Source: Flavobacterium sp. SM15
Lineage (GTDB): Bacteria > Bacteroidota > Bacteroidia > Flavobacteriales > Flavobacteriaceae
Assembly (NCBI RefSeq): GCF_022012335.1
Contig: NZ_JAKLTO010000001.1
Location: forward strand, 434,001-498,000
Direction: 5' to 3'
Length of the DNA: 64,000 bases
A program made the position numbers and the translations under genes. Shown here piece after piece: positions 2 through 34,352 of the stretch; positions within the stretch are counted from its first letter, which is position 1; each line of letters starts with the position of its first letter. Below the pieces are notes generated by a model that worked only from the letters and a program-made list of their open reading frames with translations, was not told where the DNA came from and did no database searches.

Positions 2-631
2 GTCAATGCAAATGGAGACTTGGTTCTGGGTGCCGCAACCAATAATGTGGAAATTCTTTTCAACCCCTACAACTACTTAAACGATGCTCAGGATACCGGA
101 GGAAGTGATGCAAACGTAATCACACAAACCGGTGTTGGTTCCGGTTACACAATTGCTGGATGGCCAAGACAAATTGGGGCAGGTCTCTCTACTTTCACCT
201 TAACCAAATCCGCCATTGTTGAAATTAATTATTCGCTTTCTTGGGAATTGGAAAAAAATGCCAGCAGTGCTCCTGATGATGAAAATGCTAGGGTTATTCA
301 AACCTATATGTATTTACTGAAAATGCCACTTACTTCGCACGATCCAACCTTTGCAACCGGACTTGTGACTACTGATTTAGACGGAGTCCCTTTAACCATT
401 GGAAGAGCCTTAGGGCTGAACGGACAATTTCACACCAATGCTGCCAGTGACGGAGCTGCAAAGTTATTTCACAATACCGGCACCGATTATGTTAAACTAC
501 CAGCCGGAAGATATTGCCCGATGTTTGCCGCACAAGTTGCTGTAGGAAACACCGGTGGAGCTGGAGCTTGTAAAATGTACATCGGAACAGGACAAGACGA
601 AGTTCAGGTTATTGCTCATTATTATAATTAA
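2..631 (+). CDS. secreted surface protein, paralog 1 (5' end outside window)
   Basis: This is the C-terminal part of a secreted protein of unknown function; its start lies before the window. The frame is open from base 2, and the first residues (VNANGDLVLG) match YIDANGDLVLG in the paralog at 2563, so the gene clearly extends upstream. The last 60 residues are nearly the same as those of that paralog (HNTG-DYVKLP, YCPMF, ending HYYN), and both share the central NYSxSWxxEKNA block. The conserved ends suggest a folded beta-rich C-terminal domain, but no family was recognised. It is followed by a strong hairpin terminator, so it ends a transcript and is not in the operon that starts at 1035. No catalytic motif is visible. 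Confidence 0.75.
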   Translation, partial: VNANGDLVLGAATNNVEILFNPYNYLNDAQDTGGSDANVITQTGVGSGYTIAGWPRQIGAGLSTFTLTKSAIVEINYSLSWELEKNASSAPDDENARVIQTYMYLLKMPLTSHDPTFATGLVTTDLDGVPLTIGRALGLNGQFHTNAASDGAAKLFHNTGTDYVKLPAGRYCPMFAAQVAVGNTGGAGACKMYIGTGQDEVQVIAHYYN

Positions 632-642
632 CGATTTATAGC

Positions 643-680
643 AAACTAAGAAAGCAGCCTATTGGCTGCTTTCTTAGTTT
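643..680 (+). terminator. hairpin terminator after paralog 1
   Basis: A perfect 17-bp inverted repeat (643-659 with 664-680, loop TATT) lies 12 bases after the stop codon at 631. The right arm ends in TTTAT. It closes the transcript of the first surface protein. Confidence 0.85.
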
Positions 681-958
681 ATAGAAGTTAAACAACCCGA
701 AAAAATATACATTTTATTTAGATTTTGTTACACTTTATAAGACAAAAGCACTCCTTGTTAAAATAACTTCAAAAACATTCGTTTTGTCGTAAAAATCATC
801 AATTAAACCAAATTGTAACATTTCTAATGATTAATGTTATTTTTAATGAATTTTCATTATTAAATATTTATAAAAACATAACTTTTTATTAACTTACCTC
901 AACAGACTAAGTTTTTTTTTGTCATTTTACTTGTTTTTTAATATTTTTTTTAAAATTA

Positions 959-995
959 ACGCAACCCTATTTTGTTTTCTGCATCTTATAAGTAC
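959..995 (+). promoter_or_regulatory. ECF-type promoter candidate, surface operon
   Basis: The motif is acgcaacc (959-966), 14 bases, then gcatcttataagtac (981-995). The same two blocks occur at 31213-31248, in front of the lipoprotein/ECF sigma/anti-sigma operon, with a 13-base gap. It does not fit the housekeeping TTG/TAnnTTTG pattern. I infer that it is the promoter for the operon at 1035 and is read by the ECF sigma factor encoded at 31694. A start site a few bases after 994 would give a leader of about 30 bases. Confidence 0.6.
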
Positions 996-1034
996 AAGCC
1001 CCCTTAACAAAGTACTAACCAAATCCTAAAGAGC

Positions 1035-1781
1035 ATGAGAAACGCCTACATTTTATCCGCATTGCTCATTTGTTGTTCCCTATTTGCACAAACCAGTGCA
1101 GTAGGAATCGGAACAACAAATCCACAACAAAAATTGCATTTAGACAAAAGCGTTGGAACTGTTCGTGTTGAAAGTCTTAGTAAAGACAATAATCCGTTTA
1201 ACGGAGGAAACACCAACCCAACAGGTACCTATCCGCTTTATGTTGACAGCAATGGAGTCCTTACCTTAGCATTAAATACCTTTGAAAATTCCGATGGTAG
1301 TGATGCTATTGACCACACCACAATCCCAACTGCCACCCTAACAATGACCGCCGCCGATGCTGACGGTAAAGTAGACGGGACCATCCTTACGTATACTGTA
1401 AGTGTGCCAAGACAAGCCATCTTGGAAATCAAATACAGTATCAGCTACGAAATTTACCATAACAACTCCATGCTTAAAATAAGAGATGCTGGAGCAAGAC
1501 GCATTACCACTTATTATACGGTTGATGACCTGCCAAGAAAATACGGTCAAGCAAGTAAAAGCTACATGAGTTACAATAAAAACAATCCTGCTCCCTACAT
1601 TGCTACCGATCGTCTTTGTGCGGTAGGACAAATGTACAACACTAGTACAACTTATGTTCAATTATCTGCCGGAACACACACTATTAAATTAAAAGGCGAG
1701 ATCAGTTCAAATCTTCCATCTTTACCAACTTATGTGAAATATGCCGTAGACACCGATTCGCTATTTATGAGACTTTACTAA
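1035..1781 (+). CDS. secreted surface protein, paralog 2
   Basis: A 248-residue secreted protein of unknown function and first gene of a three-gene operon. Residues 1-19 form a signal peptide (MRNAYILSALLICCSLFAQ). The mature part begins with the VGIGTTNPQQKLHL block, which all members of this group share and which is common in flavobacterial surface and phage-fibre-like proteins. The middle carries the shared PRQAILEIKYSISYEI segment; the C-terminus is beta-rich and diverges from paralogs 1 and 4. The ATG is 12 bases after an AAATCCTAAAG stretch and 41 bases after the promoter-like motif at 959-995. The gap to the next gene is 12 bases. A structural or adhesive role is only a guess; no enzyme motif or T9SS tail was seen. 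Confidence 0.7.
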   Translation: MRNAYILSALLICCSLFAQTSAVGIGTTNPQQKLHLDKSVGTVRVESLSKDNNPFNGGNTNPTGTYPLYVDSNGVLTLALNTFENSDGSDAIDHTTIPTATLTMTAADADGKVDGTILTYTVSVPRQAILEIKYSISYEIYHNNSMLKIRDAGARRITTYYTVDDLPRKYGQASKSYMSYNKNNPAPYIATDRLCAVGQMYNTSTTYVQLSAGTHTIKLKGEISSNLPSLPTYVKYAVDTDSLFMRLY

Positions 1782-1793
1782 AACCCCAAGCTT

Positions 1794-2555
1794 ATGAAAA
1801 AGTCATTACTCGCTTTACTATTAACCTCATTTATAGGTTATTCCCAAGTAGGAATTGGCACAGCTAATCCTCAATCGGATTTACATATTGCAGGAAATCT
1901 TTCAACCATTAGAATTGAAAAACACAGTGCAGTAAACAACCCTACACTAAACAACGGACTAAAACCGGCGCTTGCATATGTAAACGCAAACGGAGACATT
2001 ACATTATCTCCCTCAGGAGCAAATGGATCTAGCTCAACAGGTCTTACTCCGCCTATTAATTTCTTAATTGACGTTAATGATTTTGTACCTGCGGGTCCTT
2101 TGGGATATGGTACCATAATCAATAATTCAACCGCCGTAACTTCATCAAACGGATTGATTACCGTGGTTCCTTTTTCTTCCCCACAAGCCGCCTTAATTGA
2201 AGTAAAGTATGGCATTACCGTTTTATTTTCCTCTACCGATTTGAATTCTGCCGCAACCCCATTTAACGACTCATCTGCAAGAATAGCCAAGGTGTATTTT
2301 TGCATTGACTTGAATAATGACGGGCTTGACGCAACAGAATTATCAAAAAGATACGGTTTAAACGGTTTACCTTATTCTTCATTTGCACAAGGAATTTTAG
2401 GGTATGCCTACATGAACTCTCACGGCTATTCCTCCATTCCAGCAGGCAACCACTCCTTACACTTTTTTGGGCAAATCAATGATGGTGAAAGCAAACTAAC
2501 AAGTGTAGGCTATGGTGGTGCAAAGGATTTTCTTAAAATAAGAATCTATAACTAA
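1794..2555 (+). CDS. secreted surface protein, paralog 3
   Basis: A 253-residue secreted protein of unknown function and second gene of the operon. A signal peptide (MKKSLLALLLTSFIGYS) is followed directly by QVGIGTANPQSDLHI, the group's N-terminal signature, and then by a second shared block (TIRIEKHSAVNNP; compare TVRIEGLNAANN in paralog 4). The region around PQAALIEVKYGITVLF aligns with the NYS/KYS block of the others. The end (DFLKIRIYN) resembles the DSLFMRLY end of paralog 2 more than the HYYN end of paralogs 1 and 4, so the cluster has two subtypes. It lies 12 bases after paralog 2 and 7 bases before paralog 4. No function can be assigned. Confidence 0.7.
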   Translation: MKKSLLALLLTSFIGYSQVGIGTANPQSDLHIAGNLSTIRIEKHSAVNNPTLNNGLKPALAYVNANGDITLSPSGANGSSSTGLTPPINFLIDVNDFVPAGPLGYGTIINNSTAVTSSNGLITVVPFSSPQAALIEVKYGITVLFSSTDLNSAATPFNDSSARIAKVYFCIDLNNDGLDATELSKRYGLNGLPYSSFAQGILGYAYMNSHGYSSIPAGNHSLHFFGQINDGESKLTSVGYGGAKDFLKIRIYN

Positions 2556-2562
2556 ACTTACT

Positions 2563-3378
2563 ATGAAAAAATATATTACACTCTCCGTTCTATTAACTGC
2601 ACTGGGCGCCAATTGCCAGGTAGGAATCAAAACAACCAATCCACAGGAAGGCGTTCACGTTGGTGGCGCAAATTCAACGGTAAGGATTGAAGGTTTAAAT
2701 GCGGCAAACAACACAAACAATCTTGGAGTAGGAAATTCATCTCGTGTTTATATTGATGCCAATGGCGATTTAGTTCTTGGTTCAAAAGACAACAACATCG
2801 AAATCTTGTTTGATGCAGAAAATTATTTAAAAGACGACAAGGAAAACGTGAACAACGTAATCCAACACGGCTATGGTGATGGTTACACCTATGCGGGAAT
2901 CCCGAGAGATATTCCAAACTCAACCTTTACCTTAACGCGTCCGGCAATCGTTGAAATCAATTATTCCGTGTCTTGGAATATCGAGAAAAATGCCAATTTA
3001 CGTGTAGGCGACAGTTATGCCCGTGTTGTTCAAACTTTATTGTACTTTAGACAGGGAAGTTATGTTGGTCCTGTCGTTACAACTGATTTGGAAGGAAATT
3101 TAATTGGTGGTGCCTTCGAAATTGACGGCGGCACTTCAACCTTAGGGGGCGGACTGGGCATCACCGGACAATACTATTCCAATGGAGCTACAGGAACCGG
3201 GGAAATTGAAAACTTCCACAACACCGGTTCAGATTATGTTAAACTGCCTCCAGGAACGTACTGCCCAATGTTTTCTGCTCAGTTAGCCGTTACCGACACC
3301 AGCGGATCCGGAGCGATGAAAATGTATTTGGGAACCGCAAACGATGAAGTTCAGATTATTGCACACTACTATAATTAA
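2563..3378 (+). CDS. secreted surface protein, paralog 4
   Basis: A 271-residue secreted protein of unknown function and last gene of the operon. The signal peptide MKKYITLSVLLTALGANC is followed by QVGIKTTNPQEGVHV, the group signature, then TVRIEGLNAANN and YIDANGDLVLGS. It is the full-length counterpart of the truncated protein at the left edge: the two share NYSVSWNIEKNA, HNTGSDYVKLP, YCPMF and the IIAHYYN end. The two therefore probably come from a duplication, with paralogs 2 and 3 in between. The signal peptide ends in Cys-Gln, but there is no good lipobox. A terminator shared with the AraC gene follows at once. Its role is unknown. Confidence 0.72.
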   Translation: MKKYITLSVLLTALGANCQVGIKTTNPQEGVHVGGANSTVRIEGLNAANNTNNLGVGNSSRVYIDANGDLVLGSKDNNIEILFDAENYLKDDKENVNNVIQHGYGDGYTYAGIPRDIPNSTFTLTRPAIVEINYSVSWNIEKNANLRVGDSYARVVQTLLYFRQGSYVGPVVTTDLEGNLIGGAFEIDGGTSTLGGGLGITGQYYSNGATGTGEIENFHNTGSDYVKLPPGTYCPMFSAQLAVTDTSGSGAMKMYLGTANDEVQIIAHYYN

Positions 3379-31176: not shown

Positions 31177-31204
31177 AAAATCCCGATTTTTTTCGGGATT
31201 TTTT
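31177..31204 (+). terminator. recA terminator
   Basis: AAAATCCCGA (31177-31186) pairs with TCGGGATTTT (31193-31202) across a six-T loop, followed by more T residues. Confidence 0.88.
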
Positions 31205-31212
31205 ATTTCCAG

Positions 31213-31248
31213 ACGCAACCTTTCTGTTTTTTTGCATCCTATAAGTAC
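31213..31248 (+). promoter_or_regulatory. ECF-type promoter candidate, sigma operon
   Basis: acgcaacc (31213-31220), 13 bases, then gcatcctataagtac (31234-31248). The block is shared with 959-995 upstream of the surface-protein operon. It stands 15 bases before the lipoprotein ATG, so the leader would be very short. Autoregulation by the ECF sigma factor two genes downstream is the simplest reading. Confidence 0.6.
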
Positions 31249-31262
31249 TAACAGACTATTAA

Positions 31263-31682
31263 ATGAAAAAGTTTTTATTGTTACTAATTGTTCCTTTGTT
31301 TCATGTTTCCTGCAGCAATGACAGCGAGAGTGAAGATGTGACCTTGGAATTGTTACCGGTTAGCGAAGTGGAAATTCCCGGAAACATCAATGCTGGGAAA
31401 GACAACTCAATAAAAGTGCGTTTTGTGCGCCCTACGGAATGTTACTCATTCAATAAGTTTTATTTTGAAATGAGCAGCTCCACCCGAACAATAGCTGTGG
31501 AATCTAAAGTTGCCCATAATAATGGCAACGGTAATTGCAGGCCTTTAACAAGCAACAATATTTCCACTGAGGTTTTGAAATTTCACCCGGAAACAACAGG
31601 TAATTACAAATTAAAATTTTGGAAAGGGAAAGACACCAACGGAAACGACTTGTTTTTAACCTATGACGTTACAGCACAGTAA
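31263..31682 (+). CDS. lipoprotein, first gene of ECF sigma operon
   Basis: A 139-residue lipoprotein of unknown function. The signal peptide ends in lipobox HVSC (Cys17), followed by an acidic linker (SNDSESEDVTLE). A single beta-sandwich-like domain has two cysteines that may form a disulfide (PTECYSF and NGNCRPL). It is the first gene behind the promoter-like motif at 31213-31248 and lies 11 bases before the sigma factor. By position it could be an envelope sensor or ligand for the barrel protein at 32236, but nothing shows this directly. Confidence 0.72.
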   Translation: MKKFLLLLIVPLFHVSCSNDSESEDVTLELLPVSEVEIPGNINAGKDNSIKVRFVRPTECYSFNKFYFEMSSSTRTIAVESKVAHNNGNGNCRPLTSNNISTEVLKFHPETTGNYKLKFWKGKDTNGNDLFLTYDVTAQ

Positions 31683-31693
31683 AAATTAAAGTT

Positions 31694-32239
31694 TTGGGTA
31701 TAGATCAGATCGTATATAATTGCCAGCAGAACGATGTTGCAGCTCAAGAACAGCTGTACAGACTTCTTGCTCCCAAATTATTCGGGGTCTGCTTGAAATA
31801 TTCCCGCAATTCCGTTGAAGCGGAAGACAATTTACAGGATGGTTTTATCCTGATTTTTGAAAAAATACACAAATTTGAATTTAAAGGCTCTTTTGAAGGC
31901 TGGGCAAAAAGAGTCATTATTAACAATATCCTTCAGCGTTACCGCACCGAAGGGGTTTTCGAAATTGTTCACGAAAACATACCCGATGTGCCCACAATAG
32001 ATATTGAAGAAGACTCTGTTTCGATGGATTATTTGGTTTCAATCATTCAGGAACTCCCCGATCGGTACAGACTAGTGTTTAACCTTTATGTGGTAGATGA
32101 TTATTCCCATAAAGAGATTGCAGAAATGCTGAAGATTACTATCGGAACCTCCAAATCGAATTTGGCACGTGCCCGAATGATTTTGAAAGAAAAAATTGAA
32201 TCGCAACAAGCAAAAAGAAAAATTCAATCGAACAAATGA
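31694..32239 (+). CDS. ECF-type RNA polymerase sigma factor
   Basis: A 181-residue sigma-70-family factor of the extracytoplasmic function group. Region 2 runs from about residue 20 to 85 (LAPKLFGVCLKYSRN, DNLQDGFILIFEKI, GWAKRVIINN). Region 4 lies near 118-170 and has a clear helix-turn-helix (YSHKEIAEMLKITIGTSKSN). No ATG is available; the TTG at 31694 gives MGIDQIVYNCQQ, which fits the usual start. Its stop overlaps the next gene by 4 bases (ATGA), so sigma and anti-sigma are translated together. It probably activates its own operon and, by motif sharing, the operon at 1035. Confidence 0.92.
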   Translation: MGIDQIVYNCQQNDVAAQEQLYRLLAPKLFGVCLKYSRNSVEAEDNLQDGFILIFEKIHKFEFKGSFEGWAKRVIINNILQRYRTEGVFEIVHENIPDVPTIDIEEDSVSMDYLVSIIQELPDRYRLVFNLYVVDDYSHKEIAEMLKITIGTSKSNLARARMILKEKIESQQAKRKIQSNK

Positions 32240-34257
32240 GCGAAAGACAAAATATAGATCGACTCTTTCAGGAAAAATTTAAAGACTTTGAAGTAGCTCC
32301 ACCCGAACACGTTTGGAATAACATTCAATCTAAAATAAGTACTGATACCAAGAAAACACAGCCTTCTCTTCCATCATGGTTGAAATTAGGAGGTACTGCT
32401 GTGGCCTTGCTTATCGGACTGTTCCTTTTTGAGACTGTTTCTGAGAAAGGCATTCACTTTTTAAACGATAAGTCAAGAACCGCTCCAGAAACTAAATCTA
32501 CGACCGCCGGTTCAGATAAAAACAATACCATTACAACTGCTGATTCGGAAACAGTAACTAACAATTCTGAAGTTAATCCAGATCAGACAGCGGTTGACAA
32601 CCAATCGGTTTCTTCCAACACCGCTACCGACAAGGGTACTATTAATGCTTCGAATGCCCTGAGGGAAACAACAGCTGGAAGTACTTCTAATGGAGTATCC
32701 GCAAAAGAAAACAGTTACTCATCCTATTCAACAAATACTGTTTCTGGATCAAACAACAAGAACTCAACATCAAACAACAGCTCTTCAAAAAGAGGAACTT
32801 TTGCAAATGGGGTTTCTACAGCAAATGCTTACGCAGTAGAAAACTCTGGAAGAAAATCGCATGGAGATGCCAAATACAGCATAACCGCAAAATCTGTAAA
32901 GAGAGGCTCAACTGCTGCTTCCTTTTTGCAACGTAATACTAAGATAAATAACGGAACAATTGTAAGTGGTAAAAACGCAACTGCAAATCAACACCTTGCA
33001 TCGGAAAAAGCACTTGCGGTTTCTGGCGATTCTTCTGCATTGAAAACACAAAACACTTCAAATCAGAAACTACAAAACAATGGGCAAATTATTACTAATG
33101 ATGCTCAAACTGTTGCTCAAGTAAAATCAAACGAAAACAATAAATATACACTGGCTAATTCCGCTAATCAAGAAGCACACAAAACGGAACCCGGAATTAA
33201 AAATGAACCTCAGGACAACAGCGGTGATTTATTGTATGAAAACAACGCCAAATCTAAAATCGCTTACGAATCAGGCAACCGTCACCTGACTCAAAAAAAC
33301 AAAAACAAAGCAGTGGTATCAGAGGTTAAAAACGAGAGCGCTGCTAAAAATAATTCTGAAAAAGACTCTAAAACTCTTATTGTCAACAGCAAAGGTGCCG
33401 ATAAGATCACTTTGAATGAAAAAGCAACTAATTCTGCCCTTTCTTCTTCAGACTCAATTGCCGTTAAACAAAATACTGTAGCTAAAAATTCAGAGAAAAA
33501 AGGCGAAAAAGAAGCTACTGAAGAAAAAGACAAAAAAGACACTAAACGCAAAGACCGTTGGACCATAACCTCAAGCACAACTCCTGTTTACATGAATTTG
33601 AACGGGTATGGTTCGACCATCGATTCCAAATTCGACAACAACTCTAAAAGTTATCTTACCAAGATGAGTTACGGAGCCGGAGTAAAATATGCTCTTAACG
33701 AGAAATGGGCCATCCAAACCGGAGTAAGTACCGTAAACTTTGAATACAACACCAACGACATTACATTTTATCATTCCAATAGAAATAATGGTTTGGAACA
33801 CGTTACACCCAATGGTGCAGGCACAGGAATTGTGGTGGAAAACCCAGATCCTAAAGGAATTGCATACGACAGTGGCGGTATAGTAACCACTCGTTTTGTT
33901 GGAGACATCAACCACAGAATCAGTTATGTAGAGGTTCCGATGCAGTTAAACTATAAATTGCTTAATAAAAAATTCGGAATCGATGTTATCGGAGGATTCA
34001 GTACCTTGTTTTTGAACGAAAACCGTGTAAGTGTGGTTTCTGCTGAAACAAGCATCCATATTGGTGAGGCAAACAATTTGAACCGAATCCATTTCAGTAC
34101 AAACGCCGGTTTAGGTTTTCATTACAATTTTATGAAAGCTCTTCAGGTGAATTTCGAACCAATGTTTAAATATCAGATCAATACATTTAAAAGTGAATCC
34201 GACAATTTCAAACCGTATTTCATAGGGTTGTATTCCGGAATCAGTTATAAATTTTAA
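32236..34257 (+). CDS. envelope-spanning anti-sigma factor with outer-membrane barrel
   Basis: A 673-residue protein with four parts. Residues 1-48 are cytoplasmic and resemble the sigma-binding start of this class (FQEKFKDFEVAPPEHVWNNI). Residues 50-68 form one membrane helix. Residues 70 to about 438 are a low-complexity Ser/Thr/Asn/Lys linker, long enough to cross the periplasm. From about 440 (DRWTITSSTTPVYMN) to the end, amphipathic beta strands ending in Tyr-Lys-Phe form an outer-membrane barrel. The design matches the dual membrane-spanning anti-sigma factors reported in Bacteroides (from memory). It is overlapped by the sigma gene (ATGA). The linker holds many near-repeats of KNxNSE/NSNK type. 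Tethering both membranes while holding the sigma factor is inferred. Confidence 0.82.
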   Translation: MSERQNIDRLFQEKFKDFEVAPPEHVWNNIQSKISTDTKKTQPSLPSWLKLGGTAVALLIGLFLFETVSEKGIHFLNDKSRTAPETKSTTAGSDKNNTITTADSETVTNNSEVNPDQTAVDNQSVSSNTATDKGTINASNALRETTAGSTSNGVSAKENSYSSYSTNTVSGSNNKNSTSNNSSSKRGTFANGVSTANAYAVENSGRKSHGDAKYSITAKSVKRGSTAASFLQRNTKINNGTIVSGKNATANQHLASEKALAVSGDSSALKTQNTSNQKLQNNGQIITNDAQTVAQVKSNENNKYTLANSANQEAHKTEPGIKNEPQDNSGDLLYENNAKSKIAYESGNRHLTQKNKNKAVVSEVKNESAAKNNSEKDSKTLIVNSKGADKITLNEKATNSALSSSDSIAVKQNTVAKNSEKKGEKEATEEKDKKDTKRKDRWTITSSTTPVYMNLNGYGSTIDSKFDNNSKSYLTKMSYGAGVKYALNEKWAIQTGVSTVNFEYNTNDITFYHSNRNNGLEHVTPNGAGTGIVVENPDPKGIAYDSGGIVTTRFVGDINHRISYVEVPMQLNYKLLNKKFGIDVIGGFSTLFLNENRVSVVSAETSIHIGEANNLNRIHFSTNAGLGFHYNFMKALQVNFEPMFKYQINTFKSESDNFKPYFIGLYSGISYKF

Positions 34258-34313: not shown

Positions 34314-34352
34314 AAATAGGCACTCTTTTGGGTTAGAGTGCCTATTTTATTT
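34314..34352 (+). terminator. terminator of ECF sigma operon
   Basis: A 12-bp perfect hairpin (34314-34325 with 34336-34347, loop of 10) is followed by TATTTTTA, 56 bases after the stop codon. Confidence 0.85.

Follow-up and report, generated by a model that had tools for sequence, protein, structure and literature searches.

The window analysed here is a 64,000-nucleotide stretch of the 2.99-Mb genome of Flavobacterium sp. SM15 (contig NZ_JAKLTO010000001.1, positions 434,001 to 498,000), the nearest named relatives of which are Flavobacterium cauense and F. saliperosum (recA 98% and 97%, respectively). Downstream of recA, three plus-strand genes, encoding a lipoprotein, an extracytoplasmic function (ECF) sigma factor and a 673-residue anti-sigma factor of the dual membrane-spanning (Dma) type, are flanked by two intrinsic-terminator-like hairpins and preceded by a promoter-like element, a second copy of which lies near the left edge of the window. 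The features are as follows, with the evidence in brackets.

31177..31202, + strand: intrinsic-terminator-like hairpin after recA, closing the upstream unit (hairpin scan)
31214..31238, + strand: promoter-like element CGCAACCTTT ... GCATC, 15 bp from GCAACC to ATC (locus stack, genome pattern search)
31263..31682, + strand: lipoprotein, 139 aa, with lipobox C17 (...HVSC17), invariant C60 and C92 and an immunoglobulin (Ig)-like beta sandwich (open reading frame (ORF), alignment, model)
31694..32239, + strand: ECF sigma factor, 181 aa, TTG start, in the clade of EcfO/Das-type sigma factors (ORF, Pfam, NCBIfam, tree)
32236..34257, + strand: anti-sigma factor, 673 residues, Dma type (ORF, AlphaFold2 model, homologue alignment)
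32236..32379, + strand: its residues 1-48, predicted cytoplasmic sigma-binding part with two helices and the motif P-x(2-4)-W-x2-[ILMV] (alignment, model)
32374..32445, + strand: its residues 47-70, inner-membrane helix (AlphaFold2 model)
32446..33558, + strand: its residues 71-441, disordered periplasmic tether rich in S, N, K, T and A, ending in a charged helix at 409-436 (model, alignment)
33559..34254, + strand: its residues 442-673, eight-stranded outer-membrane barrel with invariant C-terminal F673 (model, Foldseek, alignment)
34314..34347, + strand: intrinsic-terminator-like hairpin 3' of the anti-sigma gene (hairpin scan)
960..985, + strand: second copy of the promoter-like element, ending 50 bp before the secreted-protein ORF 1035-1781 (248 aa)

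The three ORFs proposed in the first-pass annotation, which was made from the window's letters alone, were recovered, and the 4-bp overlap between the anti-sigma start and the sigma stop was read directly from them. They are not chance ORFs, because homologues of all three occur in the same order elsewhere. Homologous loci were represented by the best 80 of 323, and conservation was therefore measured among close homologues. In the order recA-lipoprotein-sigma-Dma, the sigma gene and recA lie upstream of the Dma gene in 80/80 loci, and the lipoprotein gene, which the annotation had placed ahead of the pair, is intact in 79 and present as a broken copy in the 80th (L038, a contig of a metagenome-assembled genome); the lipoprotein is thus not peculiar to the window locus. 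The overlap recurs in 70 of the 80 cases scored (79 loci and the window), and homologues of plsC and trpS were found, counting weak matches, in 72/82 and 65/82 of the stretches scored, respectively. The hairpin scan of 3.5 kb returned 5 sites against 2.8 expected from shuffles, so that a single hairpin is weak evidence; a similar hairpin, judged by eye, follows recA in most relatives' sequences. A scan for sigma-70-type promoters was uninformative (10 sites, 8.9 expected).

The AlphaFold2 model of the anti-sigma factor points to one anchor in the inner membrane and another in the outer. The model, built on a 47-sequence alignment (the window protein and those of 46 of the 80 loci), contains helices at residues 3-19, 24-38 and 47-70, as well as eight long strands, all within residues 442-672. 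The single membrane helix and the low-complexity linker of about 370 residues described beforehand thus reappear as a helix at 47-70 (50-68 in the annotation) and a linker of 370 residues modelled as disordered. The mean predicted local distance difference test score (pLDDT) is 57 over the whole model; values fall below 50 at residues 74-123 and 125-412, giving disorder from about 74 to 412, and the barrel region from 441 onward has means of 84-95 in 19 of its 24 ten-residue blocks, the lowest being 65. A barrel after residue 440, on which the annotation had staked its reading, is indeed modelled, its eight strands at 442-672 being OmpA-like in Foldseek: the transmembrane domain of OmpA (9fzc) ranks first (E 2.5e-7), and the best rows comprise OmpA, Ail, OmpW and similar eight-stranded barrels together with some larger ones. 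The barrel at 442-673 sets the protein apart from the classical short single-pass anti-sigma factors, which have no outer-membrane domain.

Conservation follows this division. Median identity of the 46 homologues to the window protein is 57% over residues 1-48, 16% over the linker and 47% over the barrel, as would be expected of a protein with conserved working ends joined by a free tether; the linker of the window protein is the longest of the 47 (range 171-370, median 254). Invariant columns include L10-F18 (LFQEKFKDF), W27 and the C-terminal F673. The motif P-x(2-4)-W-x2-[ILMV] is present in 80/80 proteins scored (79 loci and the window, leaving out L048 with its shortened ORF call), in four other Dma proteins and in two Reo-type proteins; it occurs in one of the 83 window ORFs of at least 100 residues, which must be the anti-sigma factor itself. 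Residues 1-48 are predicted to bind the sigma factor; they are too invariant across the 80 aligned sequences for residue covariation with it.

The sigma factor matches Sigma70_r2 (6e-14) and Sigma70_r4_2 (1e-15) in Pfam, and NCBIfam agrees on a sigma factor. In a midpoint-rooted tree of 30 rows, it falls with its relatives, other Dma-linked sigma factors, EcfO-type sigma factors and the host's own ECF at C12:314019-314579 into one clade (97/93), which stands apart from the remaining ECFs of the host genome, several long branches lying outside it. The label ECF21 is that of PMC13088901. The host ECF of the same clade lies beside a short anti-sigma-like protein carrying the Dma N-terminal motif (C12:313367-314579, L219), which measures about 220 residues, counted from its likely start, and gives no barrel match.

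Other Dma operons fall into further types. The host genome itself carries, after pnp, a unit consisting of CGCAACCTTTT, a 432-aa lipoprotein with a sub-threshold Lcl_C match, an ECF sigma factor and a 531-aa Dma-like protein (C12:273459-276948, L178). In a second operon type, the sigma and Dma genes follow one or two small genes for secreted proteins or lipoproteins; a third, to which the host unit after pnp belongs, consists of a 432-439-aa lipoprotein, sigma and Dma, preceded by CGCAACCTTTT with a different -10-like stretch.

The promoter-like element has the form CGCAACC(TTT)-15/16-ATC, and the lipoprotein ATG begins 25 bp past its end. GCAACC lies between recA and the sigma gene in 80/81 stretches (the 80 loci and the window); L024 is the exception, probably owing to a recA ORF call that extends beyond the hexamer. 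The distance from GCAACC to ATC is 16 bp in 71 and 15 bp in 8, and in one no ATC was found; a pattern with a fixed 16-bp spacer consequently misses the 15-bp site of the window. Among the 79 stackable rows, A-C-G-C-A-A-C-C is kept in 77 to 79 at each position, with a mixed spacer between the two parts. In the host genome, CGCAACCTTT occurs at three sites (15 for the reversed control), namely the window operon, the sigma-Dma operon of C12 and one position inside a gene. The pattern CGCAACCN{13,14}GCATC likewise gives three sites, all outside ORFs (control, 0): the operon, window positions 960-985 and C34:24424, 25 bp past which a leucine-rich secreted protein starts. With the wider pattern CGCAACCN{14,17}ATC, 12 host sites were found against 5 for the control, the other nine all lying inside ORFs of at least 80 residues. 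F. cauense and F. saliperosum also have the 960 site, with a like gene (by eye) starting 47-48 bp on, and a further copy of the element stands 44-49 bp before a paralogue.

Two observations concern the surroundings of such sites. Window positions 20-3378 hold a tandem array of paralogous genes for secreted proteins: three are 248-271 aa long, and a 203-aa ORF is called from a start just inside the window edge. The three full-length proteins have a GIGTTNPQ-like stretch close to the N-terminus, and the 248-aa gene is the one carrying the element. Separately, a conserved 219-aa gene is preceded in five genomes, at about 100-110 bp, by a CGCAACC...CATC match (C1:398227-398252 in the host, which is L088; L104, L222, L227 and L241); the host match overlaps a 119-aa ORF, and may be a regulon site or merely a conserved gene end.

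Pattern searches were extended to 40 genomes, the host's included, with reversed patterns as controls. They gave 28 matches against 3 for CGCAACCN{13,14}GCATC and 27 against 1 for the strict form ACGCAACCNTTN{11,12}NATCTA, 26 of these 27 lying outside ORFs of at least 120 residues. The strict matches were assigned by reading the neighbourhood of each site: four head lipoprotein operons of the recA-linked type and five the second type of Dma operon, five precede other lipoprotein genes and two SusC-like genes, and the remainder lie between recA and plsC without the operon (7), before other genes (2), before nothing obvious (1) or inside an ORF (1). Counted by hand within the genus, a Dma barrel protein (threshold E 1e-15) is encoded in 12/17 genomes with the strict pattern versus 1/8 of the others (Fisher p 0.01). 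A search of seven genomes returned 39 element matches against 13 for the control; 30 were examined, 19 lying outside and 11 inside ORFs, and two of the latter are due to an ORF called from an early start just before the site. From the genes that the strict form precedes in relatives, an autoregulated regulon of surface proteins is predicted, and we propose that the element is the target of the operon's own sigma factor.

In four genomes that carry the element without the operon (G006, G008, G014 and G004; loci L121, L130, L142 and L138), a conserved basic ORF of 33-35 residues lies 65-69 bp behind it (4/4). In three of these genomes, G006, G008 and G014 (L134, L139 and L145), a second element about 180 bp upstream has no ATG-initiated ORF of at least 25 residues behind it (3/3); a terminator-like hairpin (by eye) stands before the next element, making a small RNA possible.

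The lipoprotein is conserved at C17 of the lipobox, C60, C92 and G122, which are invariant in 58 sequences (the window and 57 of the 79 homologues), and its model is all-beta (pLDDT 88). In a structural comparison with 997 chains, the NigD-like 3qwn ranked first (Z 6.2, root-mean-square deviation 3.5, 99 aligned), followed by 3k0y (Z 6.0) and the Bacteroides fragilis lipoprotein 3nqi (Z 5.5), with 3k6o eighth (Z 4.7). NigD-like chains thus take ranks 1, 2 and 8, all at Z 4.7-6.2 and below 8; a NigD profile finds five PDB sequences, of which 3qwn, 3k0y and 3k6o are three, the other two being absent from the 50 rows listed. At E 0.001, neither Foldseek with the lipoprotein model nor a search of the host genome with NigD_C gave a match; its profile retrieved nothing relevant from the PDB sequences, and no NigD model was among the 25 Pfam families listed, out of 30, for the 58 members. 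Sequence homology to NigD was considered and rejected: full-length hhalign aligned the signal peptide only, the mature domains scored 10.99, while 40 column shuffles reached up to 15.87, and short NigD_C-like proteins scored 11.78 against a null of 18.57. With Z below 8 and the sequence profiles at null level, common descent is not shown, and the model suggests a resemblance kept at the level of the fold only. That likeness is notable because NigD lipoproteins are a chief published output of the EcfO-Reo regulon (PMC9308784, PMC13114119). As a separate observation, five Bacteroidia loci (L191-L195) encode short lipoprotein-like proteins that match NigD_C above the Pfam cut-off, conserve YxGGC...H and D-x-C and are related to NigD by profile (hhalign E 1.7e-8); no sigma-Dma neighbour was present in the stretches read.

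The annotation had likened the layout to that of dual membrane-spanning anti-sigma factors of Bacteroides, and the likeness holds for the helix, the disordered tether, the OmpA-like barrel and the adjacent ECF sigma gene. According to the paper on Dma1, the family is reportedly spread across Bacteroidota. Published proteins of this layout are Dma1, Dma2 and EcfO-Reo (PMC13088901, PMC9308784, PMC13114119). With the Dma2 system, the window unit has in common the N-terminal anti-sigma part, the membrane helix, the long disordered tether, the C-terminal barrel and the neighbouring ECF sigma gene. It differs in that its host belongs to a different bacterial order, the sigma gene follows that of an Ig-like lipoprotein within one unit and recA lies upstream, whereas the third gene of the Dma2 operon of B. 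thetaiotaomicron is BT_1557 (DUF4943). In a dma2 mutant, das2 and its operon are strongly raised (PMC13088901).

Membership was compared using three Bacteroidales-like sigma-anti-sigma pairs lying beside nigD genes, a set distinct from the Dma1 and Dma2 sequences. The window unit resembles this EcfO-Reo system of Phocaeicola and Bacteroides in the sigma clade, the N-terminal motif, a homologous barrel (hhalign of the window barrel profile against three Reo-type proteins: pairwise E 1e-4, probability 58%) and a lipoprotein gene beside the pair. In contrast, nigD is divergent and longer in the three Bacteroidales loci (236-260 aa, NigD_C match), at which no CGCAACC element was seen by eye; the window lipoprotein has NigD-like chains among its nearest fold matches, at Z below 8, and differs from the NigD family in consisting of one small domain that carries an invariant Cys pair. 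In Bacteroidales, the system is induced by an envelope-damaging toxin (PMC9308784), which fits a barrel that would report the condition of the outer membrane, and for Dma1 NigD lipoproteins are required for hypervesiculation (PMC13114119, PMC13088901). In F. johnsoniae, TamL depletion raises outer-membrane lipoproteins (PMC12045153); a link of that response to the present regulon is only a suggestion. The start-site map of F. psychrophilum gives a different ECF motif (PMC9723704), and a Riemerella sigma-factor paper citing EcfO (PMC6557517), for the sigma factor of which no Dma link was shown, was not used. Among the literature searched, most subscription papers lying outside it, no publication on a flavobacterial Dma system or the CGCAACC element was recognised.

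Collectively, the locus, which belongs to a close relative of F. cauense, is probably an autoregulated operon in which an ECF sigma factor is paired with a dual membrane-spanning anti-sigma factor of the Dma (EcfO-Reo) type. The anatomy, the conservation and the promoter-like element with its placement are computational results; sigma binding, signal, release and the identity of the sigma factor that reads the element are inferred. Residues 1-48 would hold the sigma factor at the inner membrane, while the disordered tether would cross the periplasm to the OmpA-like barrel seated in the outer membrane. A change there, be it in barrel assembly, a surface ligand or envelope damage, would be reported by the barrel through the tether, releasing the sigma factor. 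The freed sigma factor would then read CGCAACC-15/16-ATC promoters, amplifying its own lipoprotein-sigma-anti-sigma operon and switching on a limited number of genes for lipoproteins and secreted surface proteins.

Several findings weigh against this reading. The host's second pair shares the -35-like CGCAACCTTTT but differs in its -10-like stretch, so that assigning the element to one sigma factor is tentative. The strict pattern does not match the window's own site; one genome (G007) has the strict element and no Dma match, and in four genomes of the genus the element persists between recA and plsC without the operon. Outside the host, 10 of the 25 CGCAACCN{13,14}GCATC matches lie outside ORFs and 15 inside, so that beyond close relatives the looser forms are mostly chance. 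A mirror-tree analysis of 64 loci, moreover, does not separate the operon partners from the neighbour plsC.

Other explanations concern the parts of the device. The lipoprotein, which the annotation suggested as the sensing partner, might act as a sensor or gate, docking on the periplasmic or the surface face of the barrel and keeping the anti-sigma factor in its sigma-binding state. Such a role is plausible because the gene is always present, directly before the sigma-Dma pair at 80/80 loci, once in broken form; seven of eight further flavobacterial Dma operons also begin with a lipoprotein-like gene (by eye; the eighth begins with a small membrane or secreted protein), and the invariant Cys pair and compact domain would suit binding. 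However, the other operon types start with different-looking lipoproteins although their Dma proteins are related, the adjacent NigD of Bacteroidales is a regulon output (PMC9308784, PMC13114119), and lipoprotein and barrel co-diverge (partial r 0.25) little more than lipoprotein and plsC do (0.19, with fewer covariates). We therefore regard the sensor or gate as unlikely; the lipoprotein is most likely an output acting at the outer membrane and less likely a co-sensor. Release might instead depend on regulated proteolysis as in RseA, the linker being cut after the signal and the barrel serving as mere protease bait. A long, exposed and unconserved linker could be cut anywhere, yet at 16% identity it offers no evident conserved cleavage site, no cleavage-motif search having been made, and the published Dma/Reo models have the sigma factor released from an envelope-spanning protein (PMC13114119); this route is accordingly doubtful. 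It is highly improbable that the 673-residue protein is simply an outer-membrane protein, lengthened considerably at its N-terminus and located beside a sigma gene by chance. Pfam and NCBIfam do give sub-threshold barrel matches and no anti-sigma model for it, but LFQEKFKDF and W27 are invariant in the cytoplasmic part, the N-terminal motif is common to the short anti-sigma-like protein without a barrel match, and the sigma/anti-sigma pairing is constant, with overlapping genes.

In the preferred reading of an autoregulated Dma operon, the design itself is known from gut Bacteroides; new here are the co-travelling lipoprotein and a DNA element that probably marks target genes. A wider and decidedly speculative extension is that Dma forms a general circuit of outer-membrane homeostasis across Bacteroidota, comprising the tethered Dma protein, a sigma factor like EcfO, a promoter code of the CGCAACC type in Flavobacteriaceae and a dedicated lipoprotein of NigD-C-like fold that would be the circuit's first output and also act back on the barrel as its partner; in some species, its promoters might also serve the conserved 33-35-residue basic peptide and possible small RNAs, as with sigma-E in enterobacteria. 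Dma proteins are a candidate answer to the question of how signals pass two membranes when neither a protease nor a receptor relay takes part, and in the literature examined they have so far been studied only in gut Bacteroidales. The flavobacterial version, with its element, a pair of systems in the host genome and constant lipoprotein, leads to testable predictions of regulon, promoter and lipoprotein role outside Bacteroidales.

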